Shown here in pieces: positions 1,429 to 64,000 of a stretch of 64,000 nucleotides of DNA. The stretch spans positions 3,382,001 through 3,446,000 of the forward strand of contig NZ_CP162599.1 in NCBI RefSeq assembly GCF_040958695.1. The letters are read 5' to 3'. Below the pieces are notes generated by a model. It had not been told where the DNA came from. It did not search any database and was given only the letters and a program-made list of their open reading frames with translations. Numbering within the stretch: the first letter of the stretch is position 1; every line of letters begins with the position of its first letter. This stretch comes from Ornithinibacillus sp. 4-3 (GTDB lineage Bacteria > Bacillota > Bacilli > Bacillales > Amphibacillaceae). Both the position numbers and the translations under genes were made by a program.

Positions 1429-2952
1429 TTACAGATAGTTTTCAAACTCCGTTCTCAGTTTATGCTCTGCTTCTTTTAATTTACTGCGTTTATTTTCTAG
1501 CCAACCTAAATCAGTCAGTATTTTCTCTTCCTCAATTCCAAGCATTCTTTCAACTTCAGATGGTTGCGGTCCACCTAATACCGCAGCATTTCTTACCATG
1601 GTTTCTGGTTTTAAAATACTGTAGAAATCCTGTTCTGATAATGGAAGATCTTCTATTTGAAATTTAAAGGTTTTAGCCGTATCACTATATAATTTTTGTG
1701 CAATAGAATAAGGTATTTCTAATGGGACAAGTTGATGTTCTTTGCCATAGGTTACAATTTCAGACGCGAAATGGTGACTTATTCTAAATGGGACATCATA
1801 TTCCTTTTGTAACTCCACAGCCAATTCTGTAATCATTGTATAATCACTCGTCACTTCTTTTAACGCTCTTTCTTCATCAAAGACAAAAATCCCGATAGCT
1901 TTTTTGAGTAGTTCAAGCATTTCTGTAGACAATTTAACGGCATTTAAAGGCATATAAGGATACGAATCAATTATTTCAAGTTTATAATCAACTAAGCCAT
2001 GGATAATATTATGAGATTGCATTAAAAAAGTTACTGAAGATCCCTTTACAGTACTTGCAAGCATTCTAACTCTTGTTAAAGCTTTAGGGTTTCTTTTTTG
2101 AGGCATCATGCTACTAGTACCGGTTAACTCCCCTTCTTTCAGTACAGAATCTGCTCCTTGCTTATATACTCCTTCATCCATGATTATCCATGGTTTTGAA
2201 TATGTATATTGAAGTAATATGTCTGTCATAAACATACTGACAGTCGAAGCTACTGTACTAACAACATTACTAACCTCTATACCTATATCTAAAGGTGCTG
2301 CATGTGCTGCATCAAATGAATTACAAATCACTCCATCAAACCCTAGTAGTTCACTAAGCCTCTCTCTATCTAAATGAAAGCTCGAAGTTCCACCCGCAGC
2401 CACTCCAAAAGGTGATTTATTTAACCTCTCCCAAAGTTCTAAATATCTATCAGCAATTCTACTGAATGCTTCTAAATAACCTCCTAAGTAGTGACCTAAG
2501 GTAGTTGGTTGTGCAGGTACTCCCTGAGTATAAAAAGGAACAATCGCATTTGGATTTGATTTAACAAATTCTAGTAACGCTTTTCTCATTAATATAAATT
2601 GTTCAAAGCTATCTAGAATAGCATCTCGTTGCTCTAATCTCGGTATTGTTACATCAACCATATCTACTCTGGATCTACCAACATGTACTTTGGTAATTTC
2701 TGGACCACCATAAGCGATTAATTCTTGCTCTAACTCAAAATAATCAAATGTGCGTTTTGCACCTGGCTTTTCTCCATCAATAATTACTTGTTCTACAGCT
2801 TTCGCAATTTCCGCGCATAATTCCTCTGAAATAATATCTTGCTCTCTTAGCATTACTGTAGAAGCTTTATTTATTTCTCCAAACCAGAAAAATCTGTCCC
2901 TCGGGTAAATACTTATTTCTTCACCTTTTGAACCATTATTTTTGGTATCCAT
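1429..2952 (-). CDS. Argininosuccinate lyase-like enzyme of the fumarase/aspartase superfamily
   Basis: A 507-aa protein starting at ATG 2952, which has a strong AGGAGGAGA site 8 nt upstream; an in-frame ATG 42 nt earlier has no such site. The superfamily signature loop GTSSMMPQKRNP lies at residues 278-289, with a QPTTLGHYL helix (around 148-156) like the ArgH TxxH region. The ArgH motif usually reading RSRND-Q reads RSRVDM here (residues 93-98), so Asn and Gln are replaced. The protein is also longer than a typical ArgH (about 460 aa), no argG is nearby, and the next gene encodes an SBP. I infer a catabolic C-N lyase acting on an N-(dicarboxyethyl)amine-type compound (as EDDS lyase does) rather than arginine biosynthesis. 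The substrate is unknown. Confidence 0.85.
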   Translation of the reverse strand: MDTKNNGSKGEEISIYPRDRFFWFGEINKASTVMLREQDIISEELCAEIAKAVEQVIIDGEKPGAKRTFDYFELEQELIAYGGPEITKVHVGRSRVDMVDVTIPRLEQRDAILDSFEQFILMRKALLEFVKSNPNAIVPFYTQGVPAQPTTLGHYLGGYLEAFSRIADRYLELWERLNKSPFGVAAGGTSSFHLDRERLSELLGFDGVICNSFDAAHAAPLDIGIEVSNVVSTVASTVSMFMTDILLQYTYSKPWIIMDEGVYKQGADSVLKEGELTGTSSMMPQKRNPKALTRVRMLASTVKGSSVTFLMQSHNIIHGLVDYKLEIIDSYPYMPLNAVKLSTEMLELLKKAIGIFVFDEERALKEVTSDYTMITELAVELQKEYDVPFRISHHFASEIVTYGKEHQLVPLEIPYSIAQKLYSDTAKTFKFQIEDLPLSEQDFYSILKPETMVRNAAVLGGPQPSEVERMLGIEEEKILTDLGWLENKRSKLKEAEHKLRTEFENYL

Positions 2953-3182
2953 CAAATCTCTCCTCCTGAATAAATTTATCTTTATACTTAACAACTTATT
3001 AACAAGACAAATAATACATAGGCTTTGACATCGCTTTCATTTCTAAAAATAGGGATGATAGTGAATTTTCCCTCAGGAATATTTATTCTGAAAATTTAAG
3101 GCGCATTTTTCTAATAATAAAGCTCCTTACCTTAATAATAACAATTTGAATACATCCCTCCCTTCTCTTTTTAAATTTTCCC

Positions 3183-4169
3183 CTACCTCTGACAAACACC
3201 CACCAAAAACGATAGCATCGTATGTACTGCATTTTTTACCGTAATTTGCCCTATATCCTTACGTGGATCCAGACAGACGATATCCATTGCTTTTACTTTT
3301 GGGTGTGTTCCTGCGATTTGAACTGCTTCAAATAACTCTTCTGAATACATTCCACCTGGTGCAGCTGCAGGGGTAGCTGGTCCATGAATAATATCTAATA
3401 CATCCATATCTACCGTTAAGTAGATAGTGTCTACCTGTGCTTCTAATTTATTTAAAGCATCATGAATAACATTGGTGATTCCTTTTTTCCGTGCTTGTTT
3501 CATCGTCATATAATTCACTTTTTCTTGATCTGCATATACTTTTAAAGCTTTTGCATTGAAGAAACCGTGAAGTCCAATATTATGAACATGCTCACCCTTG
3601 ACTATTCCTGCTTCAATTAATTGGCGTATTGGCGTGCCGTTTGCAGGGCCCATTTCACTTGTATCACGTAAATCAAAGTGTGAATCAAGCTGTAATATTC
3701 CTATTGTCTCTTCCGAATGTACTTCCTTCCAGCCTTTTACAAGCATTGCTGTAATGGAATGATCTCCACCTAAAACAAGTGGAATCGAATGGGAATGTGT
3801 TTTTCGCATTGCAATCATTGCTTGTTTAATATTTTCATGTGTTTCTAAAATATTTGTGATATGCTGTCTCACATTTCCAACATCAATTACTTTCAATTGT
3901 GTTAAATCCAAATCCTCATCTAAATTATAAGTTCCAAAATATTTCCAAGCTTGACGCATCATTTCGGGATTTTCGCTTGCTGTGGATGCGCTAATCGACG
4001 ATTTAGATAAAGGAATTCCTAAAATGGTAACATCATATACTGACCAATCCGGCTCTTCTTCTCCAACCGTGTCAATCCAGTCACTTACTTTAATATCCTC
4101 TGTTTGATTTGTTTTCTTCGACCAAATCATATCTGCTCGCTCAAGTAATGGGTAGGGGTAGTTACTCAT
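3183..4169 (-). CDS. hutG: Formimidoylglutamase
   Basis: A 328-aa ureohydrolase-fold enzyme that hydrolyses N-formimidoyl-L-glutamate to glutamate and formamide, the last step of the hut pathway. The metal-binding residues of the arginase family are visible: GGDHS (His137), LDSHFD (Asp162, His164, Asp166) and TVDMD (Asp254, Asp256), which hold two Mn ions. Its ATG overlaps the stop of hutI (ATGA overlap), showing translational coupling, and a GGGGGAG ribosome site precedes it. It is the last gene of the hutU-hutI-hutG run. I see no clear terminator in the 230 bp that follow. Confidence 0.95.
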   Translation of the reverse strand: MSNYPYPLLERADMIWSKKTNQTEDIKVSDWIDTVGEEEPDWSVYDVTILGIPLSKSSISASTASENPEMMRQAWKYFGTYNLDEDLDLTQLKVIDVGNVRQHITNILETHENIKQAMIAMRKTHSHSIPLVLGGDHSITAMLVKGWKEVHSEETIGILQLDSHFDLRDTSEMGPANGTPIRQLIEAGIVKGEHVHNIGLHGFFNAKALKVYADQEKVNYMTMKQARKKGITNVIHDALNKLEAQVDTIYLTVDMDVLDIIHGPATPAAAPGGMYSEELFEAVQIAGTHPKVKAMDIVCLDPRKDIGQITVKNAVHTMLSFLVGVCQR

Positions 4170-5440
4170 TGTAATACTCCCCCTACAATAATTTTCCTAC
4201 CTGCTTTTACAACTGTATCTACATGGTTCATTCCATATTGATAAGAAAGTGTTAAGTAATTTGGTACATTCCAAATCGTAACATCAGCTTTTTTACCAGC
4301 TTCTAAGCTACCAATTTCTTTTGCTTTTCCAATCGCATGCGCTGCATTAATTGTTGTTGCAGTAATAACTTCTTCTGGTGTCATTCCCATGTTTAGACAA
4401 CCTAAGTTCATAATAAATGGTGATGAAATAGTAGGTGATGAACCTGGGTTTGCATCTGTTGACAAAGCAACAGCCACTCCTGCGTCAATCATTTTTCGTG
4501 CACGTGCATATTCGGCCATTAAGAAAAATGCTGTACCAGGAAGTAGAACTCCAATGACTCCTGCCTCTGCCATTTTCTCGATCCCTTTGTCTGATGCTTT
4601 TAGTAAATGATCTGCTGAAATTGCCCCAACCTCTGCAGCTAGCTCTGCACCTTCATAAGGCTCAATTTCATCTGCATGGATCTTTGGAATTAACCCATAT
4701 TTCTTACCAGCCTCTAGAATTTTTCGAGATTGTTCCGGGGTAAATACTCCTCTTTCACAGAAAACATCATTAAAGATAGCTAGTTTTCTTTCCGCAACAA
4801 CTGGTAACATTTCATTAATCACTCGATCAACAAATTGATCTGGATCTTCCTTCAAATCAAGCGGAACTGCATGTGCCCCCATAAAAGTAGAAACGATATC
4901 AAGCACATGATCCTCGTCCAGTTTTTTTGCAACCTCTAATTGCTTTATTTCATCCTCTAGTGTTAACCCATAACCGCTTTTTGCTTCCACTGTTGTTACA
5001 CCATGACGAGCAAATTGATCAAGTCGTTTTTTCGCTTGTTCATACAGTTCTTCATGTGTTGCTGCTTGTGTCGCACGTGTTGTTGCGTGGATACCTCCAC
5101 CAGCATTCATAATTTCCATATATGTTTTTCCTTGGAGTCTCATTGCATATTCATTTTCTCTTGTTCCTGCATGAACTAGATGTGTATGTGGATCAACTAA
5201 TCCTGGAGTTACGATTTTCCCAGTTGCATCAATAATCTCAGCCTCTGCTAATTTATCATGAAATTGCTTACGAATCTCCTCATCTTTGCCAACCGCAATG
5301 ATTTTTCCGTCTTCTAGCCAAGCACTTCCATTTTTTATGACACCAATTTCTGACATTTTCTCTTGCTTTGCAGGAACATCACTATGTCCTGCCATCGTAA
5401 TGAGCTCGTTTGCGTTTGAAATTAACATGTATGAAGCCAT
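4166..5440 (-). CDS. hutI: Imidazolonepropionase
   Basis: A 424-aa cytosolic amidohydrolase-fold enzyme that opens 4-imidazolone-5-propanoate to N-formimidoyl-L-glutamate. The zinc-binding strand motif DPHTHLVHAG carries His85 and His87, and later His/Asp residues of the fold are present (IHADEIEP, STDANPGS). Length matches the family (about 420 aa). It lies 83 bp downstream of hutU and overlaps hutG by 4 bp, so the three genes form an operon read leftward. Confidence 0.95.
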   Translation of the reverse strand: MASYMLISNANELITMAGHSDVPAKQEKMSEIGVIKNGSAWLEDGKIIAVGKDEEIRKQFHDKLAEAEIIDATGKIVTPGLVDPHTHLVHAGTRENEYAMRLQGKTYMEIMNAGGGIHATTRATQAATHEELYEQAKKRLDQFARHGVTTVEAKSGYGLTLEDEIKQLEVAKKLDEDHVLDIVSTFMGAHAVPLDLKEDPDQFVDRVINEMLPVVAERKLAIFNDVFCERGVFTPEQSRKILEAGKKYGLIPKIHADEIEPYEGAELAAEVGAISADHLLKASDKGIEKMAEAGVIGVLLPGTAFFLMAEYARARKMIDAGVAVALSTDANPGSSPTISSPFIMNLGCLNMGMTPEEVITATTINAAHAIGKAKEIGSLEAGKKADVTIWNVPNYLTLSYQYGMNHVDTVVKAGRKIIVGGVLQ

Positions 5441-5523
5441 TGCTCTATCTCCTTTATGAAACTAATTTGCGGTAAAGATAGAAAAGTAAGTTCCCCTACC
5501 TTTCTATCTTTACTATATATCAA

Positions 5524-7182
5524 TTATTCATCTAACATTGGAATTTTAACGCCTTTTTCACGTGCTGTTTCTTTTGCTTTCTCATATCCAGCATCTACAT
5601 GACGGACAATACCCATTCCTGGATCTGTTGTTAATACACGCTCAAGCCTTGCTTCCGCATCCTTCGTACCATCTGCAACAATTACCATTCCTGCATGAAT
5701 AGAATAACCCATACCTACACCGCCACCATGGTGTACACTGACCCAGCTTGCTCCACCAACACTATTAATTAGCGCATTTAAAATTGGCCAATCTGCTACC
5801 GCATCACTACCATCTTTCATTGCTTCTGTTTCACGGTTTGGTGATGCTACAGAACCAGAATCTAAATGGTCACGGCCAATTACGATTGGTGCAGATATTT
5901 CACCACTAGCTACCATATCATTAATGATTTTTCCAAAGCGTGCTCTCTCTCCATAACCAAACCAACAAATTCTTGATGGTAAGCCTTGGAATTCAATTTT
6001 TTCTTTTGCCATACGAATCCAATTACATAAATGCTTGTTATAACTAAATTCTTTTAAAATCACTTCATCTAATTTATAAATATCTTCTGGATCGCCAGAT
6101 AGAGCCACCCATCTGAATGGTCCTTTTCCTTCACAAAATTGTGGACGAATATAAGCTGGAACAAATCCCGGAAAATCAAACGCATTTTCTACGCCTTCAT
6201 CTTTTGCTACTTGGCGAATGTTATTTCCATAGTCGAAGGTTACTGCACCAAGTTTTTGTAATTCAAGCATTGCACGAACATGCTGTGCCATCGATGCTTT
6301 TGAAAGCTTGACATAGGCTTCTGGGTCATTTTCGCGCAATGCTGCTGCTTCTTCTAATGACATTTTTGAAGGTATGTATCCATTTAATGGATCATGTGCT
6401 GAAGTTTGGTCTGTTAGTACTTCAGGAATAAAACCAATCGAAATCATCTCTGGTAAAATATCTGCAGCATTTCCTAATAAACCAATGGAAAGTGCTTTTC
6501 CTTCCTTCTTCGCTTCTTCTGCTATACGAATTGCTTCCTCTAATGAATCTGTTTTCACATCACAATAACGTGTTTCAATACGGCGATCAATACGCTTTTC
6601 ATCTACTTCAATCGCAATACATACTCCACCAGCCATGGTAACTGCAAGTGGTTGTGCTCCACCCATACCGCCTAGGCCTGCTGTAACTGTAATTGTTCCT
6701 TGCAATGATCCATTATAGTGCTGGTTAGCTAATTCAGCGAAGCTTTCGTATGTTCCTTGTACAATTCCTTGTGAGCCAATGTAAATCCAGCTTCCTGCGG
6801 TCATTTGCCCATACATCATTAAGCCTTTTTTATCTAGCTCATGGAAATGATCCCAATTTGCCCAGCTTGGTACAAGGTTTGAATTTGCAATCAATACTTT
6901 TGGTGCATCTTTATGCGAACGGAAAATAGCAACAGGCTTACCTGATTGCACGAGTAATGTTTCATCATCTTCTAATTCTTTTAATGATTTTACAATCGTA
7001 TCATAGCATTCCCAGTTTCTTGCCGCTTTACCAATACCACCATATACTACTAGTTCATCTGGATTCTCTGCTACATCTGGATGTAAATTATTATTTAACA
7101 TGCGAAGTGCCGCTTCCTGAATCCACCCTTTTGTGTTTAGTTTGGAACCACGGTATTGTTCCACTTTATTTGATTGAGACAT
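5524..7182 (-). CDS. hutU: Urocanate hydratase
   Basis: A 552-aa NAD-dependent urocanase, the usual family length, converting urocanate to imidazolonepropionate. Diagnostic stretches include [12 protein letters not shown] (NAD-binding region) and [12 protein letters not shown] place the start at ATG 7182 (protein begins MSQSNK) because the GGAGGA ribosome site is about 9 nt upstream; a GTG at 7191 abuts that site and is too close. It is the first gene of the hut run. No hutH (histidine ammonia-lyase) or hutP is found in this window, so histidine deamination must be encoded elsewhere, or urocanate itself is the input. Confidence 0.96.
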
Positions 7183-7361
7183 ATCTTCCACTCCTCCTAA
7201 ATAATCTAACTATTCTAATTATAAAACTGATTTTTCTAATAAAATAGATGTTAAACTTTCGATTTTAGGCAAAAATATTCTATTCATTTCTTTTCTTTCG
7301 AGTTTATCTTTATTAAATTATAAAAATATTCGTTTATGTTAAAAATATACTTTTAATTCAT

Positions 7362-38804: not shown

Positions 38805-40382
38805 CTATCTTACAATCACTTGACCATTTCCATCTAAATCACATTCGCCAGAAGCTACACAAATTTTCCCATTTACAATTACATAATCAATACCTTCTGG
38901 TTCGTTCAGAGGTTCTTCATATGTTGCTGTATCCGCTACTGCCGCTGGATCAAAAATAACAATATCTGCCCAGTAGTCTGGCTGTAGCACCCCGCGTTTT
39001 TCAAGACGCATCATTTGTGCAACAGCACCTGACATGCTATGGACTGCCTCTTCTAAACGCAATACCTTTTGCTCCCTTACATAACGCCCTAAAACTCTTG
39101 GCTGAGTTCCAGATAAACGTGGATGTGGTTTTCCACCAAAAACGCTGTCAGAGCCTACTGTAAAATATGGACTCTTCATTGCAAGTATCATATCTTCCTC
39201 ATTTCCCCAATGAGCAACCATCGTTACATTTCCTTCTTCTTCAATTAGAATGTCAAAGCCTGCATCTGCTGGATCTACACCACGTAATGATGCAATTTCT
39301 GCAACGCTTTTCCCTTCAATTTGTTTATTCTTTTCACTTCCTACTGACGCAACAATGACATTATCCCAACCACTGTTATATACAAAATTCTCGTATTCTG
39401 TACTTTCTGCAATATCTTGCTTTGCTTTTTGACGAGATACTGGATCCTTAAGACGCTCCAACATCTGAACCGTTCCGCCTTCATGCATCCAAGGTGGTAA
39501 CATCGCAGCTAACACAGTAGATCCCGCTGTATATGGATATTGATCAAAGGTAACTTCTATGCCTTCTGCACGAGCATCTTCCATCTTCTTAAGTGCTTCT
39601 GGATAGTATTCTCGATTACGTACGCCCATTACTTTAAAATGTGAAATATGCAAACGAACTCCTGACTCACGTGCTACATGTAGCATCTCATCAATTGCCT
39701 CTAAAATAGAAAAGCTTTCATTACGCATATGAACAACAAAACACCCATCATATTTTGCAACAACCTTACACATTTCTGTTAGCTCTTCTGTAGCCGAAAA
39801 TAAATTCGGTGGATATACTAAACCAGAAGAAAATCCAATCGCTCCCTGCTCCATACCAATTTCAACAAGCTCACACATTTTAGCAATTTCCTCTGCCGTT
39901 GCTTCACGTTTTTCCCAGCCCATCACTAATGTACGCACATTTCCATGAGGCACCATATATGTAACATTTCCTAATAAATTTGCTTTACGGAGTACTTGTA
40001 AATATTCCTCGATGCTTGACCAGTTCCAATCACCTATATCTCCATTTAACCCTTTTAACTGTGATTGCCATAAAGGTTTTGTTTCATCACTCACAGGAGC
40101 AACAGATATGCCATCTTGTCCTAATAATTCTGTGGTTACTCCTTGTTTTAATTTTATTTGATGCACTTCTGATTTCATACATAATAAATCAGAATGTACA
40201 TGTGGATCGATAAATCCAGGTGTCACAACACGGCCAGTCGCATCTATAACCTTTTTCGCCTCTGCCTGCATATTTCTTTCCATTTTGGCAATTTTTCCAT
40301 CTTTAATTGCTACATCTAACTTTGTCCAAGGATTATTCATGCCATCAATGACATGGCCATTTTTTATTAAAATATCATACAT
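38805..40382 (-). CDS. N-acyl-D-amino-acid deacylase (D-aminoacylase-like)
   Basis: A 525-aa amidohydrolase-superfamily enzyme. The start is ATG 40382 (MYDILIKNGHVIDG), with AAAGGAGA upstream; the open frame continues 86 codons further without signals. The N-terminal beta-sandwich is followed by GFIDPHVHSD (zinc His-x-His) and then LHISHFKVMG and SDSVFGGKPHPR with further metal and catalytic residues. Family members hydrolyse N-acyl-D-amino acids or D-hydantoin-like amides. The gene is alone; a promoter-like TATAAT (minus strand, about 40422-40427) lies 40 bp upstream. Confidence 0.88.
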   Translation of the reverse strand: MYDILIKNGHVIDGMNNPWTKLDVAIKDGKIAKMERNMQAEAKKVIDATGRVVTPGFIDPHVHSDLLCMKSEVHQIKLKQGVTTELLGQDGISVAPVSDETKPLWQSQLKGLNGDIGDWNWSSIEEYLQVLRKANLLGNVTYMVPHGNVRTLVMGWEKREATAEEIAKMCELVEIGMEQGAIGFSSGLVYPPNLFSATEELTEMCKVVAKYDGCFVVHMRNESFSILEAIDEMLHVARESGVRLHISHFKVMGVRNREYYPEALKKMEDARAEGIEVTFDQYPYTAGSTVLAAMLPPWMHEGGTVQMLERLKDPVSRQKAKQDIAESTEYENFVYNSGWDNVIVASVGSEKNKQIEGKSVAEIASLRGVDPADAGFDILIEEEGNVTMVAHWGNEEDMILAMKSPYFTVGSDSVFGGKPHPRLSGTQPRVLGRYVREQKVLRLEEAVHSMSGAVAQMMRLEKRGVLQPDYWADIVIFDPAAVADTATYEEPLNEPEGIDYVIVNGKICVASGECDLDGNGQVIVR

Positions 40383-40672: not shown

Positions 40673-42139
40673 TTATTCTAGACTATCTAATGGCCAACAA
40701 GGTCGAGTTAATTGTTCCCAAGTAAAATTACCGAAGTCACCATTACTCACTCCAAGAGTGTTTAATAAGATAATCTTTGAAGCTATATCACGATAAAAAG
40801 CACGGAAATGAAGTGTGGATTTAACCCCAATAATTTTTGCCTTTTGTGGTTCTAGTCCAAGAGCTGAATAGCTATTTGGGTCTAAATGTGAAAAGGATAT
40901 TTCGCAAATAACGACATAAATATTACCAACTTTTATCACCGCAGTTCTTCCCATGTTTTCCATCACATTGGTTTGTTGTAATAAGAACTTCCCTTCACTT
41001 TTATGATGCAATAAACCCGTAATCTCTACTGGGTTTCCCCACCTTTTATCTAGTTTATGCCCAACAGACAATTTGACTTCTGTGCCTTCACTATAATCAT
41101 AGACCTCTTCTACTGCTTCAGGATCTACAATCGTAACATATGCAGTATCTTGAAATTGATTTTCAAGTAGTGCTTTAAGTAAAAATGCACAATCTCCTGG
41201 GGCTCCGGCTAGGGTAGAATCAGAGGATTCTGAGATAACTACCGGTTTATTTAAGCTTGGATTATTTTTCACAAATTCAATTGCTTCTTTTGGTTCTAAA
41301 CGTTTTGGTATAAATGTATCTCTGATAGACCATGCTTTCTCTAATACCTTATCTGCTGTGCTTTTCGCAATACTTTTATTAGCATTAGCAACAACTAAGG
41401 CTACGGTACCAGTATTTGGAATATCTAACCATGGCTGGACCGGAAAGAAGCTTACAACTTCTACATCCTGTGTTTCTTCTAACTCACGGCAATAATCGAT
41501 AATCTCTTTAATAGGACCTTCCGAATCATCTTGAGCTTCCGGGCTAGTTAGCATAGATATCTTTTTCATTTCCATCACAGGATTCAATTGATTTGAAAGT
41601 GTCTGTAGCAGTAGTTCAGCTGCTTTAATTCCTGTTTCAAAATGATCAACATGTGGAAATGTCTTATATCCAACAATAACATCTGCATGCTTCAGCATCT
41701 GTTCTGTCATATGGGCATGAGGATCTAATGTAATAGCGATTGGAATTTCTGTTCCAACCACATTGCGAATAGCTGATAATAGATCACCTTCTGGATCATC
41801 ACATTGCTCAGTAAGCATTGCTCCATGAAGTGCTAAAAGAACTCCTTCTATATCTTGCATCTTAGAAATTCTAGTTAAAAACTCACTTTTAAAATGCTGA
41901 TATGCATCTTCTGTTACTTTTCCCCCAGCAATTGATTTCGTTGCTATCGTAGGTTGAACGATCTTTTCTGTTTGCTGTAATACATGTAAGAATCCACCAA
42001 TCTCTGTTCGTGTACCAGTCAACATTGTAAGTACCTCATCTCCATAATAGAGATAATTATTAGAGAATACTTCTAATGTTGTTGGCACAGGAGAAAATGA
42101 ATTCGTTTCTTGCATCATGGAACCAATTACAATAGTCAT
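40673..42139 (-). CDS. M81 family metallopeptidase (MlrC-like)
   Basis: A 488-aa protein of the M81/MlrC family, named for an enzyme of microcystin breakdown; most bacterial members have unknown substrates. The N-terminus MTIVIGSMMQETNSFSP is typical, followed by LHGAMLTE, TLDPHAHMTEQM and the SESSDSTLAGAPGDC region with conserved acidic and His residues. The C-terminal domain (after about 350) resembles the MlrC C-domain (VGHKLDKRWGNP). It is the third gene of the leftward HisD-like - SBP - M81 operon, 52 bp after the SBP gene, and so is likely sigma-54 dependent. Confidence 0.85.
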   Translation of the reverse strand: MTIVIGSMMQETNSFSPVPTTLEVFSNNYLYYGDEVLTMLTGTRTEIGGFLHVLQQTEKIVQPTIATKSIAGGKVTEDAYQHFKSEFLTRISKMQDIEGVLLALHGAMLTEQCDDPEGDLLSAIRNVVGTEIPIAITLDPHAHMTEQMLKHADVIVGYKTFPHVDHFETGIKAAELLLQTLSNQLNPVMEMKKISMLTSPEAQDDSEGPIKEIIDYCRELEETQDVEVVSFFPVQPWLDIPNTGTVALVVANANKSIAKSTADKVLEKAWSIRDTFIPKRLEPKEAIEFVKNNPSLNKPVVISESSDSTLAGAPGDCAFLLKALLENQFQDTAYVTIVDPEAVEEVYDYSEGTEVKLSVGHKLDKRWGNPVEITGLLHHKSEGKFLLQQTNVMENMGRTAVIKVGNIYVVICEISFSHLDPNSYSALGLEPQKAKIIGVKSTLHFRAFYRDIASKIILLNTLGVSNGDFGNFTWEQLTRPCWPLDSLE

Positions 42140-42191: not shown

Positions 42192-43787
42192 TTATTCTTC
42201 TTTCGTCACATTCCAAAGGTGTATACCATAAAATCCATCAAAGCCTTTTATGTTGTCTCGCGAAGCATGGTAACGTAAGAATTCAGCATATTTTATAGTT
42301 GGCACATAATCATAAAATTCTGCCTGTAATTCACTAAATAATTCTAAAGCTTCTTCTTGTGATGGTGCTTCTTTAATTCCATCAATTAATGAATCCATTA
42401 ATTCATTTTGAATCCAACCAGGATATTCATTTTTAGAATACAAAAAGACAAAATTAGATGGAATTGCTTCTGCAGGCCATGTGGTAATGGTTAAATCCCA
42501 TACCGTAGGATCATTTCGAACTTCTAATAAGGTTGTCCAATCATAAACCTCTAGCTTCACATTAAAGCCAACTTCTTTTAATTGTTGTTCAATAGCAATA
42601 GCTGCATTGTAGTGTTCACTATATAGACGAGTAACTAACAGTACAACCTCTTCTCCATTATACCCAGACTCCTCTAATAGCTGCTTAGCCTTTTCTAAAT
42701 CTGGAGCATTATACTTCTCTTGTCCTGCTTCATTATACCAATCTACTTGACTTTCTACCGCTAGACTATGGTTTACTTCATAAAACTCGTCTGAACCAAA
42801 TGTCGCCTTCGAAATATCGTCAATATCTAAGCTAGCTAATACAGCTTGACGAGCAGCCTGATCTTGAAACACACCATCAGCCTGATTTAAAATCATCGTT
42901 CCAAATGTAGGATCTTTTGCGTAATGTTCAATTCCGTCTACATTTTGTAATGTCTCATAATTATCAATCGGTAATTTTACAGCAATATCATATTGACCTG
43001 TTTGAATACCAGCAACTCTTGTCGAAGGATCAGTAACAATTTCTACCTTAATCGTTTCAACAAGCGCCTCTTTCTTCCCACTAAGACCATCTGCTGGTTC
43101 TTCTAGAGGCTGATAATCAGCAAATTTCTTGTAAGTTAATGACTGACCATCAATATATTCTTCCAATTTATAAGGTCCTGTACCAATATATTCTTCAATC
43201 CCATCTGCTCCGGCATTTTCAATGGTTTCTTTTGGCATAATAACAGCACCTTGAGTTGGATTAGCCAAAATAACAACAGCAAGTGCATTTGGCTCTGTTA
43301 ACGTAATAGATACTGTATGCGGATCTACTGCTTCAATAGTTGCATCTGAGAAATTCCCTTTCCCTAAAACAGATAATTCTATCCAACGCTCCAATGAAGC
43401 AACAACATCTTCTGCGTCAAGCGTTTCACCATTATGAAATTTTATATCTTCTCTTAATTGAAAAACAATTTCTTTTCCATCTTCACTAACTGTCCATGAC
43501 TCAGCTAACATAGGTTGAGGGACATACTTTGTATCTAATGCAACTAATCCCTCATACACTGGCTTGATTAGCTCTAATGTAGCAAGTGCTGTTGTCATAT
43601 GAGGATCCATTGTTGGTGGAGTAGCATCATAAGCAACAGTTAATTCTTGATTTCCTCCAGGAGTTCCTTCATTCTCCTCTGTTTCAGAGTTATCACCATT
43701 CTGATCTTGGGATTCTTCAGAACATCCAAGAAGTCCAATTAACATTAAAATCATTAAACCAAACAATGAAAATTTAATAAATTTCAT
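42192..43787 (-). CDS. ABC transporter substrate-binding lipoprotein, family 5
   Basis: A 531-aa lipoprotein with lipobox GLLGCS (Cys22), an acidic/Asn-rich linker and the OppA/DppA-type fold (PPTMDPHMTT, YEGLVALD, FHNGETLDAEDVVAS, MPKETI, YIGTGPYKLEEY). It starts with a GAGGTG site and is the middle gene of the sigma-54-type operon, 108 bp after the HisD-like gene and before M81. It presumably captures the compound metabolised by that operon. No permease genes are adjacent. Confidence 0.93.
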   Translation of the reverse strand: MKFIKFSLFGLMILMLIGLLGCSEESQDQNGDNSETEENEGTPGGNQELTVAYDATPPTMDPHMTTALATLELIKPVYEGLVALDTKYVPQPMLAESWTVSEDGKEIVFQLREDIKFHNGETLDAEDVVASLERWIELSVLGKGNFSDATIEAVDPHTVSITLTEPNALAVVILANPTQGAVIMPKETIENAGADGIEEYIGTGPYKLEEYIDGQSLTYKKFADYQPLEEPADGLSGKKEALVETIKVEIVTDPSTRVAGIQTGQYDIAVKLPIDNYETLQNVDGIEHYAKDPTFGTMILNQADGVFQDQAARQAVLASLDIDDISKATFGSDEFYEVNHSLAVESQVDWYNEAGQEKYNAPDLEKAKQLLEESGYNGEEVVLLVTRLYSEHYNAAIAIEQQLKEVGFNVKLEVYDWTTLLEVRNDPTVWDLTITTWPAEAIPSNFVFLYSKNEYPGWIQNELMDSLIDGIKEAPSQEEALELFSELQAEFYDYVPTIKYAEFLRYHASRDNIKGFDGFYGIHLWNVTKEE

Positions 43788-43895: not shown

Positions 43896-45203
43896 TTAAA
43901 ACTTCTCAATCTTTTTTAATACATCTAATTTTGGCTCTAGCTGATCCTCTAGTCTAATATTTGCAGATCTTAAATGTCCCATTAATCCCTCCCGATAGGA
44001 TTGACGTACACAATGCGGTGCTAACGCTTCTACTCCTGCTCTTTCTACTCTCTGGTATGTCACAACTTTTAGGAAAGTTCCAACCCAAACACCACCCGTA
44101 TATTTAGCTGCATGATTGGTAGGTAAAATATGATTCGTTCCACAAACCTTATCTGCATATACAACTGATGAATTTTCTCCTAGAAATAAAGAGCCATAAT
44201 TAGTAAGTTGGTCTAAATAGTTTGGAGCATCCTGCATATGCACATGTAAATGCTCTGATGCTAAATCATTTGTTACTGCAATAGCTTCTTCTATATTTTC
44301 AGCGATAATAATTTGTCCACGATTTTCCCAGGATTGTCTTGCCACTTCTGCTGTGACTAATGTTTTTAACTGTTTTTCAATTTCCTTTTCAACCTTTGAT
44401 GCAGTTTCCCAGCTAGTAGTTACTAATATCCCCTGTGCATGAATATCATGCTCTGATTGTGCTAATAAATCTGCTGCAATATAGGATGGATTAGCAGTTT
44501 CGTCCGCTAATACTAAAACCTCACTTGGTCCTGCAAGTAAATCAATACCAACTACACCATTCACTTGTCTTTTTGCTTCTGTCACAAATCGATTACCTGG
44601 TCCGGTAATTTTATGTACAGCTTTAATTGATTCTGTTCCATAAGCTAATGCAGCAATTGCTTGAGCACCACCTACTGCAAAAATTTCATCTGCACCTGAT
44701 AAATGTGCTGCATACAATACTGCTGGATGAATTTTCCCACCCTTTGTTGGAGGTGTACAAACTCGAATATTAGATACTCCTGCAACTTTAGCTGGGATGA
44801 TAGCCATTTGTGCAGAGGATAATAAAGGGTATCTCCCTCCTGGTACATATGCCCCAACAGATTCAATTGGAATAACTTTTTGTCCTAGATGTAAACCAGG
44901 TATCATTTCCTTTTCAAATTCTGTTAAAGAACTCCTCTGCGCTTCTGCAAAGCTTTTAATTCTTTCAATAGAAAATGAAATATCCTCTACAATAGATAAT
45001 GGCAAACTTTGCTTGGCTTTCTCAATTTCTTCTGCTGATACTTTAAGATCTGTTAATTCAACCTGATCAAATTTTTTTGAGTAATTTCTCAGTGCTTGAT
45101 CCCCATCTTGTTTCACTGTTTCAATTATATTTGAAACAATATTTTGTAGTTCATCTCTTTCATGAGTTGTTGTTGCTTTCTCCTGTTTTAGATATTCAAC
45201 CAT
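43896..45203 (-). CDS. HisD-like NAD-dependent dehydrogenase (HpsN type)
   Basis: A 435-aa histidinol dehydrogenase-family enzyme. GPSEVLVLADETANPSYIAADLLAQSEHD contains the conserved Gln and His zinc ligands, YADKVCGTNHILPT an Asp ligand, and EGLMGHLRSANIR the C-terminal His. The segment AAKYTGGVWVGTFLKVVTYQRV is closer to HpsN (sulfopropanediol 3-dehydrogenase) than to biosynthetic HisD, as far as I can judge. No other his genes are present. It is the first gene behind the sigma-54 promoter at 45240-45255, so it is probably an inducible catabolic alcohol dehydrogenase. Confidence 0.85.
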   Translation of the reverse strand: MVEYLKQEKATTTHERDELQNIVSNIIETVKQDGDQALRNYSKKFDQVELTDLKVSAEEIEKAKQSLPLSIVEDISFSIERIKSFAEAQRSSLTEFEKEMIPGLHLGQKVIPIESVGAYVPGGRYPLLSSAQMAIIPAKVAGVSNIRVCTPPTKGGKIHPAVLYAAHLSGADEIFAVGGAQAIAALAYGTESIKAVHKITGPGNRFVTEAKRQVNGVVGIDLLAGPSEVLVLADETANPSYIAADLLAQSEHDIHAQGILVTTSWETASKVEKEIEKQLKTLVTAEVARQSWENRGQIIIAENIEEAIAVTNDLASEHLHVHMQDAPNYLDQLTNYGSLFLGENSSVVYADKVCGTNHILPTNHAAKYTGGVWVGTFLKVVTYQRVERAGVEALAPHCVRQSYREGLMGHLRSANIRLEDQLEPKLDVLKKIEKF

Positions 45204-45239
45204 ATTTATCCCACCTTTTTATATTTTCTATATTAATAA

Positions 45240-45255
45240 TGCAAGAATCATGCCA
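45240..45255 (-). promoter_or_regulatory. Sigma-54 (SigL) -24/-12 promoter of the HisD-like operon
   Basis: On the minus strand the sequence is TGGCAT-GATTC-TTGCA, matching TGGCAC-N5-TTGCA at ten of eleven defined positions, with the invariant GG-N10-GC spacing. Transcription should start near 45230, leaving about 27 nt of leader, including the GGTGGG ribosome site, before ATG 45203. A divergent enhancer-binding protein gene supports the call. Confidence 0.85.
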
Positions 45256-45442
45256 ATATCGAAAAACTAAAGAAATGTTCATTTATTAAAGTTTTGTATG
45301 CTTGCCAAAGAGAGGTCTCTTCTCTCATGAATAGCAACTTGTAAAGGGATTCTGTACTAGATCTCACTAGCTTAAATAAAAATTAAACTGTGCAGAAAGT
45401 TTGTACCTTATTACTCCATAAAAGGTTAGAATACATCATTTT

Positions 45443-45500
45443 TGAATCAAAATTGAATCAAAACCTTTCCAAAATGATTCAGTAATGATACAATGATTCA
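45443..45500. promoter_or_regulatory. Phased TGAATCA/TGATTCA half-sites, candidate enhancer (UAS)
   Basis: Four copies of one heptamer in both orientations: TGAATCA at 45443-45449 and 45454-45460, and TGATTCA at 45475-45481 and 45494-45500. Start-to-start steps are 11, 21 and 19 bp, close to whole helical turns. They lie about 190-250 bp upstream of the sigma-54 promoter and 30-90 bp before the regulator gene, overlapping a TACAAT hexamer (45489-45494). Confidence 0.6.
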
Positions 45501-45530
45501 TATTCGAATCGACAAATAGGAGAAATAGAA

Positions 45531-46961
45531 ATGGAAAATAATGTGCAAGAATTAAAAGAGTTAGAATTAATTTTTAATCAGTCCATTAATGAAATATTTG
45601 TTACGGATGGAGATGGCGTTTGTATCCAAGCTAATCCTGCGTGCGAGGTTAATTTCGGTATTCCTTTAAAAGACTTAATTGGCATGAATGTACATGAATT
45701 AGTTCAACGCGGGGCATTTTTCCCTTCTGCTACTTTAAAAGTTTTAAAGGATGAAAAACCAGTAACATTAATTCAATCAACGGTAACTGGAAAGCGACTA
45801 TATGTTTCCTCTACTCCTGTTTTTGAAAATGGAAAAATCATCAGAGTCATTTCTACTACAATTGATATTACCGAAATTTTATCCCTAAAAAGAAAAATTA
45901 AAGAAATGGAAACTTTGATTGATACCTATAATCAGGAGCTTATCAAGCTGAAAAAGAATTCAACAGATAATAAAGAAGGAATTGTAGTAAATAGTCCTTC
46001 CATGAAAAAGATTTTTGAGTTACTACAATTAGTAGCAAGAGTAGATTCTACGGTGTTGCTTTTAGGAGAGTCAGGTGTTGGGAAAACACAAGTAGCTCAT
46101 TGGATACACCAGGAAAGTCATCGTTCTAGTAAAGAGTTTGTAGAAGTAAACTGTGCTGCGATTCCCGCAACCTTATTCGAATCGGAGTTATTTGGTTATG
46201 AACCTGGATCCTTCTCTGGAGCATCTTCTTCCGGCCATAAAGGACTTATAGAATCAGCAAATGGAGGCACCCTTTTTCTAGATGAAATTGGTGAATTGCC
46301 TTTAGAATTACAAACGAAGATTCTTCAATTCATGCAAAATAAGACCTTTCGAAAAATAGGTGGACAAAAATTATTAACTTCCGATGTCAGAATAATTTCT
46401 GCTACGAATCGTAATCTGAACCAACTAGTGAAGGAGGGTAAATTTAGAGAGGATTTGTATTATCGATTATCTGTAATTCCTGTTGCTATTCCACCGTTAA
46501 GGGAGAGAAAAGAGGATTTAGTCGAATTAATCTATACTCTCTTAAATCAATACAATCAAAAATATGATTCGAATAAAATCATGTCTGCTCAAACCATGGA
46601 AGAATTGGTTACTTATCATTGGCCAGGTAATGTTCGTGAGCTAAAGAATACGATGGAACGCATATTTGTTACCACGAAAGGCATTCAAATTGATAAAAGT
46701 CTTAACTTTTCATTCCAGGATCATACCGTTGAAAGCACTCAAGAAGGCACAAATATGTTAATGCATTCTGATGAAGAAATCCTATCTACTGCTCTTTCTT
46801 TACAGGAAAATTATAGTCTATCTGAACGACTTGATATGGTAGAAAAAGAAATCCTTCAACGTTTCCATCATGAATATCAGTCAACTAGAAATATAGCACA
46901 ACAGCTTGATTCAAGCCAAAGTACAATTAGTCGTAAACTAAGCAAATACGATATTTATTAG
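45531..46961 (+). CDS. Sigma-54-dependent enhancer-binding activator with PAS domain
   Basis: A 476-aa regulator. Residues 1-115 are a PAS sensor domain, 115-145 a short coiled linker, and about 152-385 the AAA+ domain with Walker A GESGVGKT (179-186) and Walker B LFLDE (248-252). The C-terminus carries a Fis/TyrR-type HTH (TRNIAQQLDSSQSTISRKLSKY). The sigma-54 contact loop, usually GAFTGA, reads GSFSGA (226-231); Ser for Thr is conservative. It is divergent from the HisD-like operon, whose -24/-12 promoter and heptamer sites lie in the shared 327-bp gap. The PAS domain probably senses the substrate directly (inference). Confidence 0.93.
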   Translation: MENNVQELKELELIFNQSINEIFVTDGDGVCIQANPACEVNFGIPLKDLIGMNVHELVQRGAFFPSATLKVLKDEKPVTLIQSTVTGKRLYVSSTPVFENGKIIRVISTTIDITEILSLKRKIKEMETLIDTYNQELIKLKKNSTDNKEGIVVNSPSMKKIFELLQLVARVDSTVLLLGESGVGKTQVAHWIHQESHRSSKEFVEVNCAAIPATLFESELFGYEPGSFSGASSSGHKGLIESANGGTLFLDEIGELPLELQTKILQFMQNKTFRKIGGQKLLTSDVRIISATNRNLNQLVKEGKFREDLYYRLSVIPVAIPPLRERKEDLVELIYTLLNQYNQKYDSNKIMSAQTMEELVTYHWPGNVRELKNTMERIFVTTKGIQIDKSLNFSFQDHTVESTQEGTNMLMHSDEEILSTALSLQENYSLSERLDMVEKEILQRFHHEYQSTRNIAQQLDSSQSTISRKLSKYDIY

Positions 46962-63042: not shown

Positions 63043-64000
63043 TTATTCTGTGAACTTCGCATTCCATAATACCAAACCAGTGAATGCAGTGATTCCTTCT
63101 AATTTATTTGAAAGACCAAAGAGTGAGTTTACTCCACCTAGATTAACTACAGGAACAACTTCTGTTACTGCATATTCTTGTAATTCATCCCAAATTTGCT
63201 GACCTTCTTCTATGGAAGCAGATGTTTCAAGTGCTTTCATCATTTCAGCAACTTTCTCATCCTCTAAACCTCCACCAAAAGTTGGACTTAAATATAATAA
63301 TTGTGGTGGTGTACTTACTGTAGAAGAACCAATTACAAGTGCATCCCATTCATCTAGTTTACTTTGCATCTTATCATTAAATGTTGGCCAATCTACTACA
63401 TCAACTACTGCATTTATACCGACATTCTTTAATTGTTCTTGAATTACAATTCCTGCTGTATAATAGTTTGCATAATCACGTGTTAACATGATTTTAAATT
63501 CTTCTCCATTATAACCTGCTTCTTCCAAATATTCTTTTGCTTTTTCTGGATCTTTTAAGTTAAAGTTTTCATCACAGCCAGCTGAGCTTGCCCAATTTTT
63601 AATATTAATATCCATATAACCACAATCTACCCAGAATAAATCATCATTTGGATGCGCCGCATACATAATTTCATCTACATCCAGTGCTGTATTAACGGCC
63701 TGTCTAAAGCTCTGATTTGAGGCAATATCTCCACTCTTATTAAAGTGTAAGAATGCATTCGAAGATGGTGTTAAAAACGCTTCAATGTTTGGATCATTCT
63801 GCACTTGATCATATACATCATATGGTAATCCATATGCTAAATCATACTCTCCTGTTTGTAATCCCGCTAAACGTGTAGAGCTATCTGGTACAACATAGTA
63901 GAAAATTTCATCAAAGTGAGCAATTCTTTTACCACTTAGACCGCTCGGCTCTTCTTCTACAGGTTGGTAGTCCTCATAACGAGTAAAATGAATATATTGA
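63043..64000 (-). CDS. ABC transporter substrate-binding protein, family 5 (5' end outside window)
   Basis: The C-terminal 318 residues of an SBP gene whose start lies beyond the right edge; the frame is open up to position 64000. Reading from the edge: QYIHFTRYEDYQPVEEEPSG, then SGKRIAHFDEIFYYVVPD and STRLAGLQTGEYDLAYGLP, as in the other SBPs, ending TGLVLWNAKFTE. A GTG inside (63804) could be mistaken for a start but is not one. It has an unusual internal Cys pair region (VDCGYMD, SSAGCDEN), not seen in the other SBPs here, which may form a disulphide. Confidence 0.92.
   Translation of the reverse strand, partial: QYIHFTRYEDYQPVEEEPSGLSGKRIAHFDEIFYYVVPDSSTRLAGLQTGEYDLAYGLPYDVYDQVQNDPNIEAFLTPSSNAFLHFNKSGDIASNQSFRQAVNTALDVDEIMYAAHPNDDLFWVDCGYMDINIKNWASSAGCDENFNLKDPEKAKEYLEEAGYNGEEFKIMLTRDYANYYTAGIVIQEQLKNVGINAVVDVVDWPTFNDKMQSKLDEWDALVIGSSTVSTPPQLLYLSPTFGGGLEDEKVAEMMKALETSASIEEGQQIWDELQEYAVTEVVPVVNLGGVNSLFGLSNKLEGITAFTGLVLWNAKFTE

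Follow-up and report, generated by a model that had tools for sequence, protein, structure and literature searches.

A HisD-like gene of Ornithinibacillus sp. 4-3 is very probably controlled by a sigma-54 promoter, a probable enhancer and its own activator gene

The 64,000-nucleotide stretch of the Ornithinibacillus sp. 4-3 genome analysed here (the window; C1:3382001-3446000 of a single 3.69 Mb contig) contains a HisD-like gene of the histidinol dehydrogenase superfamily, encoding a probable zinc/NAD dehydrogenase of 435 aa (43896..45203, minus strand), followed on the same strand by genes for an SBP_bac_5 solute-binding protein (42192..43787) and an M81 (MlrC-like) hydrolase (40673..42139). 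The HisD, SBP_bac_5 and M81 domains of the three products were confirmed. The gaps between the genes, of 108 (HisD-SBP) and 52 bases (SBP-M81), carry no minus-strand terminator-like site, and about 290 bases, as judged by eye, separate the M81 gene from the probable start of the next gene; on sequence grounds the three genes likely form an operon, of which the M81 gene is the probable end. Divergent from the HisD-like gene lies a gene for a PAS-AAA+-HTH_50 sigma-54 activator of 476 aa (45531..46961, plus strand), and the gap of 45204-45530 extends exactly from the HisD-like ATG (45203, minus) to the activator ATG (45531, plus).

Several other features of this genome were recorded. The same gene order is found in a second HisD-like/SBP/M81 cluster (L054:8435-13020; HisD identity 47%), which has no activator or strict promoter element and adjoins LacI-family, RraA-like and NAD-binding genes. 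No permease gene was recognised beside the solute-binding protein gene at 42192, nor adjoining other SBP_bac_5-type genes located beside amide or peptide hydrolase genes (window 17413, 21861 and 61045; L054, L055 and L056), as if several binding proteins shared one distant permease. The window further contains a Bacillaceae-1 RNA (Rfam RF01690; 38441-38504, minus strand; 44.2 bits, cut-off 35) between amidohydrolase and M20 genes, and a GTG-started ORF of 253 aa (63043-63804, minus strand), which on visual inspection is similar to SBP_bac_5 proteins in their C-terminal part alone and is possibly a broken gene, or one with its start near or beyond the window end.

The HisD-like gene is preceded by a -24/-12 (sigma-54) promoter element, TTGGCATGATTCTTGCA (45256-45240, minus strand), with 36 bases between the element and the ATG. 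This confirms the near-consensus element with GG-N10-GC spacing that a preliminary description had seen facing the HisD-like gene, with the activator gene divergent. With C(-12) at 45241 the predicted +1 falls at 45229, a position computed from the element and one base away from the start near 45230 given in that description, and the 26-base leader after the predicted +1 holds the Shine-Dalgarno region AAAAGGTGGG (45219-45210, minus strand), as read off the sequence. The element differs in its last base only from TTGGCATN5TTGCT, the consensus used for Clostridiales in the available part of PMC6615313. Within the 64 kb window TTGGCAYN5TTGCA matched once, versus 0.03 matches expected (at least one in 3 of 100 shuffles). 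The looser TGGCAYN5TTGCW with at most one mismatch gave 8 matches versus 4.75 expected, which is not significant (as many in 12 of 100 shuffles), and the only other exact match to this pattern (40098-40113, minus strand) was set aside as lying within an amidohydrolase gene. In the 3.69 Mb genome six exact occurrences of TTGGCAN6TTGCW were among the matches listed, four of them inside ORFs; the two intergenic ones among these matches were that of the window and that of L056, both in sigma-54 activator-linked clusters. When one mismatch was allowed, 217 matches (95 + 122) were obtained versus 66 (42 + 24) for the reversed control, and since these were too numerous, only exact matches were weighed.

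The PAS, AAA+ and HTH domains of the divergently encoded activator were likewise confirmed, with HTH_50 at the C-terminus; its sigma-54 interaction domain (PF00158) scored 226 bits and contains the Walker motifs GESGVGKT and FLDE. With GSFSGA as its L1 loop, the activator departs from GAFTGA at two positions. Loop variants such as GSFTGA, GAYTGA and GAFSGA are described as still functional in the accessible portion of PMC6615313, where the double variant does not appear. The best NCBIfam model for the activator was PrdR (NF041552; 371.9 bits over residues 9-473), at a score far under the equivalog cut-off of 795. Moreover, the enhancers of the PrdR group consist of TGT and ACA separated by 10-12 bp, according to the same part of PMC6615313, whereas the gap in the window contains the TGANTCA pairs described below.

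One SigL was found in the genome, with AID, core-binding (CBD) and DNA-binding (DBD) domains. The sigma-54 interaction domain gave 11 matches in nine frames of the genome, six of which were examined, the three weakest (<=36 bits) being left out. A GAFTGA-like loop was present in three of these six: the window activator (GSFSGA), an activator encoded next to sigL (L055; GAYTGA) and a third (L056; GAFTGA). The cluster of each loop-bearing activator contains a -24/-12 match, exact for the window and L056 and with one mismatch for L055, as well as an SBP_bac_5 gene. The other three examined frames (L057:4241-5527, L072:2466-3779 and L073:1977-3278) encode PAS/AAA+ activator-like proteins in which no GAFTGA loop was recognised, and which, from their sequences, are probably not sigma-54 activators. 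For the window activator gene, a weak sigma-A-like promoter with a TG before the -10 (45466..45494, plus strand; 9-of-12 match) overlaps the candidate enhancer, in a scan with a site count not above that of shuffles (46 vs 53.7).

Eight other genomes (G012, G072, G068, G112, G837, G559, G558 and G907) yielded orthologues of the HisD-like protein, at 69-76% identity. The first four came from a family search, in which 12 of 159 genomes, including the own genome, matched at E <=1e-130, and in which the remaining seven HisD-like matches were 50-53% identical. G837, G559 and G558 came from a class search (4 of 398 genomes, own included), and searches of their orders (42, 39 and 4 genomes, respectively), which overlap with the family and class sets, added one locus, G907 (2 of 39). 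An order-level search of 397 genomes at a cut-off of 1e-150 returned only the own genome. A contig scan gave five loci; L028, taken to be on the contig of L046 because the two contigs are equally long (11,700), was counted once, and L029-L032, at 39-42% identity, were considered distant and left out of the element tally, while L026 and L048 cover one and the same gene.

By tblastn an activator, 47-55% identical to that of the window, was detected in the fetched stretch of seven of the eight orthologous loci, with the loops GAFTGA (2), GAFSGA (4) and GSFTGA (1). In six loci it is encoded directly upstream of and co-directional with the HisD-like gene; in G072 it is about 4 kb off, beyond M81 and a sodium:solute symporter. 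Relatives keeping these genes showed no loss of the -24/-12 bases, which the preliminary description had named as counter-evidence: TTGGCAN6TTGCW lies before the HisD-like gene in all seven activator-bearing orthologous loci, and both activator and element are absent from G012. The HisD ORF of G558 and G907 extends upstream, in frame, across the element; the later ATG, which follows a Shine-Dalgarno sequence, was taken as the gene start. No activator was detected (tblastn, fetched stretch) in the seven loci with 50-53% identity or beside the own-genome paralogue (47%), and no strict element was present there in 18 kb, a single looser match, in L051, being inside a gene. The strict element thereby precedes the HisD-like gene in 8/8 loci with an activator (window plus seven orthologues) and in 0/9 without (Fisher P = 4e-5, uncorrected for relatedness), a value that overstates independence since the loci without the element, all but G012, are more distant homologues (47-53%). 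In 200,706 bases from nine loci there were nine strict matches, eight before the HisD-like gene and one before M81, and none for the reversed-pattern control. Column conservation of the element was dropped as support, the alignment being anchored on the pattern and hence not independent evidence. In G072 (L044:8746-9014), two -24/-12 elements point outward from one gap, to the HisD-like gene and to a divergent M81 gene.

The genes following the HisD-like gene vary among these loci. In G837, G559, G558 and G907 the next genes encode a transporter of the amino-acid ABC type, recognised by an SBP_bac_3-type protein, a permease and an ATPase in the first three and by a permease and an ATPase in G907; in G068 and G112 they are TRAP genes (DctP, DctM and DctQ, and DctP, respectively). 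NCBIfam matches of these transporter proteins were under the cut-offs among the matches listed, and therefore do not name a substrate. The preliminary description had spoken of a HisD-like/SBP/M81 operon; the activator, promoter and HisD-like gene stay together, but the HisD/SBP/M81 set does not, M81 having been seen nearby only in G072 among the eight. By gene order, the conserved unit is activator-promoter-HisD-like, with varying partner genes.

The gap of 45204-45530 also contains a candidate enhancer (UAS; 45432..45511), composed of paired TGANTCA heptads with a spacing of 11 bp. Single TGAATCA words are not above chance in the 64 kb window (19 vs 20.9 expected), and it was the location of four of these 19 within 58 bases that led to the heptad pair. 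The array comprises an exact pair, TGAATCA-AAAT-TGAATCA (45443-45460), a one-mismatch pair, TGATTCA-GTAA-TGATACA (45475-45492), and two-mismatch pairs at 45432-45449 and 45494-45511, the latter being TGATTCA-TATT-CGAATCG; the gap holds four exact TGAATCA/TGATTCA words plus further imperfect ones. Four of the five pairs with at most two mismatches on the plus strand of the window are in the array. The pair centres are 211-274 bp upstream of the predicted +1, which is a usual distance for an enhancer. Over the eight gaps, with bounds set by the analyst, 13 copies of TGANTCA occur in five gaps, versus 0.71 in shuffles (none of 2000 shuffles had as many), and it is the most frequent of 64 centred palindromes, the next having six copies. 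In nine whole genomes, exact TGANTCAN4TGANTCA occurs at six places, three in the activator-HisD gap (window, G112 and G837) and three inside ORFs, with none for the reversed control. Judged from these sequence patterns, the array is a probable enhancer at which the activator would bind.

It is rather unlikely that the element is real and the enhancer lies elsewhere, the array at 45432-45511 being another factor's operator or only a site of activator autorepression. The array does overlap the activator's own start region, and no TGANTCA was present in the tested gaps of G068, G072 and G558; against this, the heptads in G112, G837, G559 (a one-mismatch pair) and G907 (three single heptads) are located between the end of a co-directional activator gene and the HisD-like gene, far from the activator start. 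In the scanned stretches L045 and L063 no pair with at most two mismatches was found, and L044 gave one two-mismatch pair, near its activator's start. Because of these gaps and stretches without a heptad or a good pair, the enhancer reading is not universal across the compared sequences, and where absent the motif would have changed, moved or not been needed.

The HisD-like protein exceeded the cut-off of the TIGR00069 hisD model (501.2 bits, cut-off 243.8), and its best solved relatives are HpsN-type enzymes (8v35 and 8wwe; E 4.6e-101). HpsN is a 3-dehydrogenase of R-DHPS, distinguished by His126, and its Lys353 and His126 contact the sulfonate, as stated in the available part of PMC11382572. 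Equivalents of HpsN Glu318, His319, Asp352 (active site), Lys353, His359 and His411 are all kept in the HisD-like protein, but His126, at the end of the 122-126 motif, is replaced by Leu (GRYPL), in departure from the HpsN signature. Of 7938 homologues the closest 120 were listed: position 126 is Leu in the first 75 of these, while the following 45 have Leu, Ile or Thr there and in no case His, and Lys353 is kept in 75/75 and 44/45, respectively. With HisD the protein shares the superfamily and the catalytic Glu-His and Asp residues, whereas the HisD of the genome's own his operon has GKAAY and DY, i.e., Tyr at both the 126 and 353 equivalents, where the HisD-like protein has GRYPL and DK. This separate, higher-scoring HisD gene is located among his-like ORFs (neighbours recognised by eye), and the HisD-like locus is not in the his operon. 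In a tree of 32 rows, all eight activator-linked proteins group within a single 14-row clade (100/100), together with G012 and five further proteins, and HpsN and HisD are outside it. The residues, the tree and the separate HisD gene suggest that the HisD-like protein is probably a catabolic relative of HisD and HpsN, with a possibly acidic substrate.

On the same evidence it is quite unlikely that the enzyme is a plain histidinol dehydrogenase or an HpsN-type sulfopropanediol dehydrogenase and that the operon degrades histidinol or DHPS: the hisD model score, the HpsN-type structures, the retained Lys353 and the presence of histidine-degradation-like genes about 37 kb away would fit, but the genome has another HisD for histidinol dehydrogenase, His is not found at position 126 in these best 75 and next 45 homologues, and the tree separates both reference groups from the activator-linked proteins. 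The histidine-degradation-like set (window 1429-7191, minus strand) encodes a urocanase, an amidohydrolase, an arginase-family protein and a Lyase_1 protein; residues and tree give no support to histidinol as a substrate feeding these genes, or to DHPS.

A sigma-54 promoter, a probable enhancer and an own activator gene thus very probably control the gene of the HisD-like enzyme. From the element, the activator and SigL genes, the enhancer-like array and the co-occurrence of element and activator among relatives, we infer a course of binding, looping and ligand sensing. At the -24/-12 element, RNA polymerase with SigL would be poised in a closed complex, the activator from the divergent gene would bind the TGANTCA pairs at 45432-45511 and loop across about 200 bp to the promoter, and, with its PAS domain sensing the substrate or a breakdown product, it would open the complex using ATP, by which the HisD-like-SBP-M81 catabolic operon would be switched on. 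The HisD-like enzyme would then probably oxidise a primary alcohol to an acid in a four-electron, NAD-dependent reaction, and the substrate, as judged from the retained Lys353, may carry an acidic group. Since the array covers the region where the activator gene starts, the activator, once bound, may also restrict its own production; such autoregulation is plausible for the divergent arrangement of the window, and unlikely as the role of the heptads in relatives with a co-directional activator. We consider it very likely that transcription of HisD-like-SBP-M81 depends on SigL and is driven by the PAS/AAA+ activator bound to the array, the gap of 45204-45530 representing a complete sigma-54 control region. 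That these genes are run mainly from a sigma-A promoter, the -24/-12 match being a relic or due to chance, is highly improbable: the paralogous HisD-SBP-M81 cluster, having neither activator nor strict element in 18 kb, does imply that such a set can run without SigL, and G012 lacks both as well, but the element is rare genome-wide and co-occurs with the activator, and no sigma-70-like match was returned by the scan of the minus strand of 45204-45530. The preliminary view of a 'self-contained' control region is supported by the array in the same gap, the exact pair being found at one further place in this genome, inside an ORF, and that of a dedicated sigma-54 catabolic circuit is supported by the co-occurrence of element and activator in orthologous loci.

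A sigma-54 switch with a dedicated activator is of a type well known in bacilli. The PAS-containing activators of Bacillus thuringiensis (GabR, RocR, PrdR, KamR, SoxR and BkdR) are likewise encoded beside catabolic operons with a -24/-12 promoter, in both co-directional and opposite layouts, and their targets include GABA, lysine, sarcosine, arginine, branched-chain and related pathways, as far as the available part of PMC4428206 describes them; the word 'histidinol' has 0 occurrences in its main text. Searches of the open-licence PMC literature returned no account of a HisD-like/M81 operon under sigma-54 control in Bacilli. A study of NifA in Paraburkholderia phymatum has, in the part of PMC8305402 available, table rows with negative values for hisD and, in another place, for an M81 gene; this is a hint and not the same system as the HisD-like circuit. 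By analogy with the B. thuringiensis activators, as partly covered in PMC4428206, the HisD-like switch appears as a well-supported new example of a familiar design. New in the present analysis are the enhancer motif and the evolutionary test, together with the finding that the conserved unit is activator-promoter-HisD-like rather than the HisD/SBP/M81 set.

The locus offers a testable single-operon circuit with named bases for mutation. Moreover, it draws attention to proteins of Bacilli that carry the name histidinol dehydrogenase or sulfopropanediol 3-dehydrogenase in databases but are probably neither. There is about an even chance that the activator-linked HisD-like proteins constitute a separate Bacilli family of catabolic dehydrogenases (Leu126/Lys353 type) with a private sigma-54 activator, paired TGANTCA enhancers and one acidic alcohol substrate, in which the uptake module (amino-acid-type ABC, TRAP, sodium symporter, or SBP plus M81) would have been repeatedly exchanged while the regulator stayed. 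Finally, the inducer of the activator would point directly to the substrate of the HisD-like enzyme.
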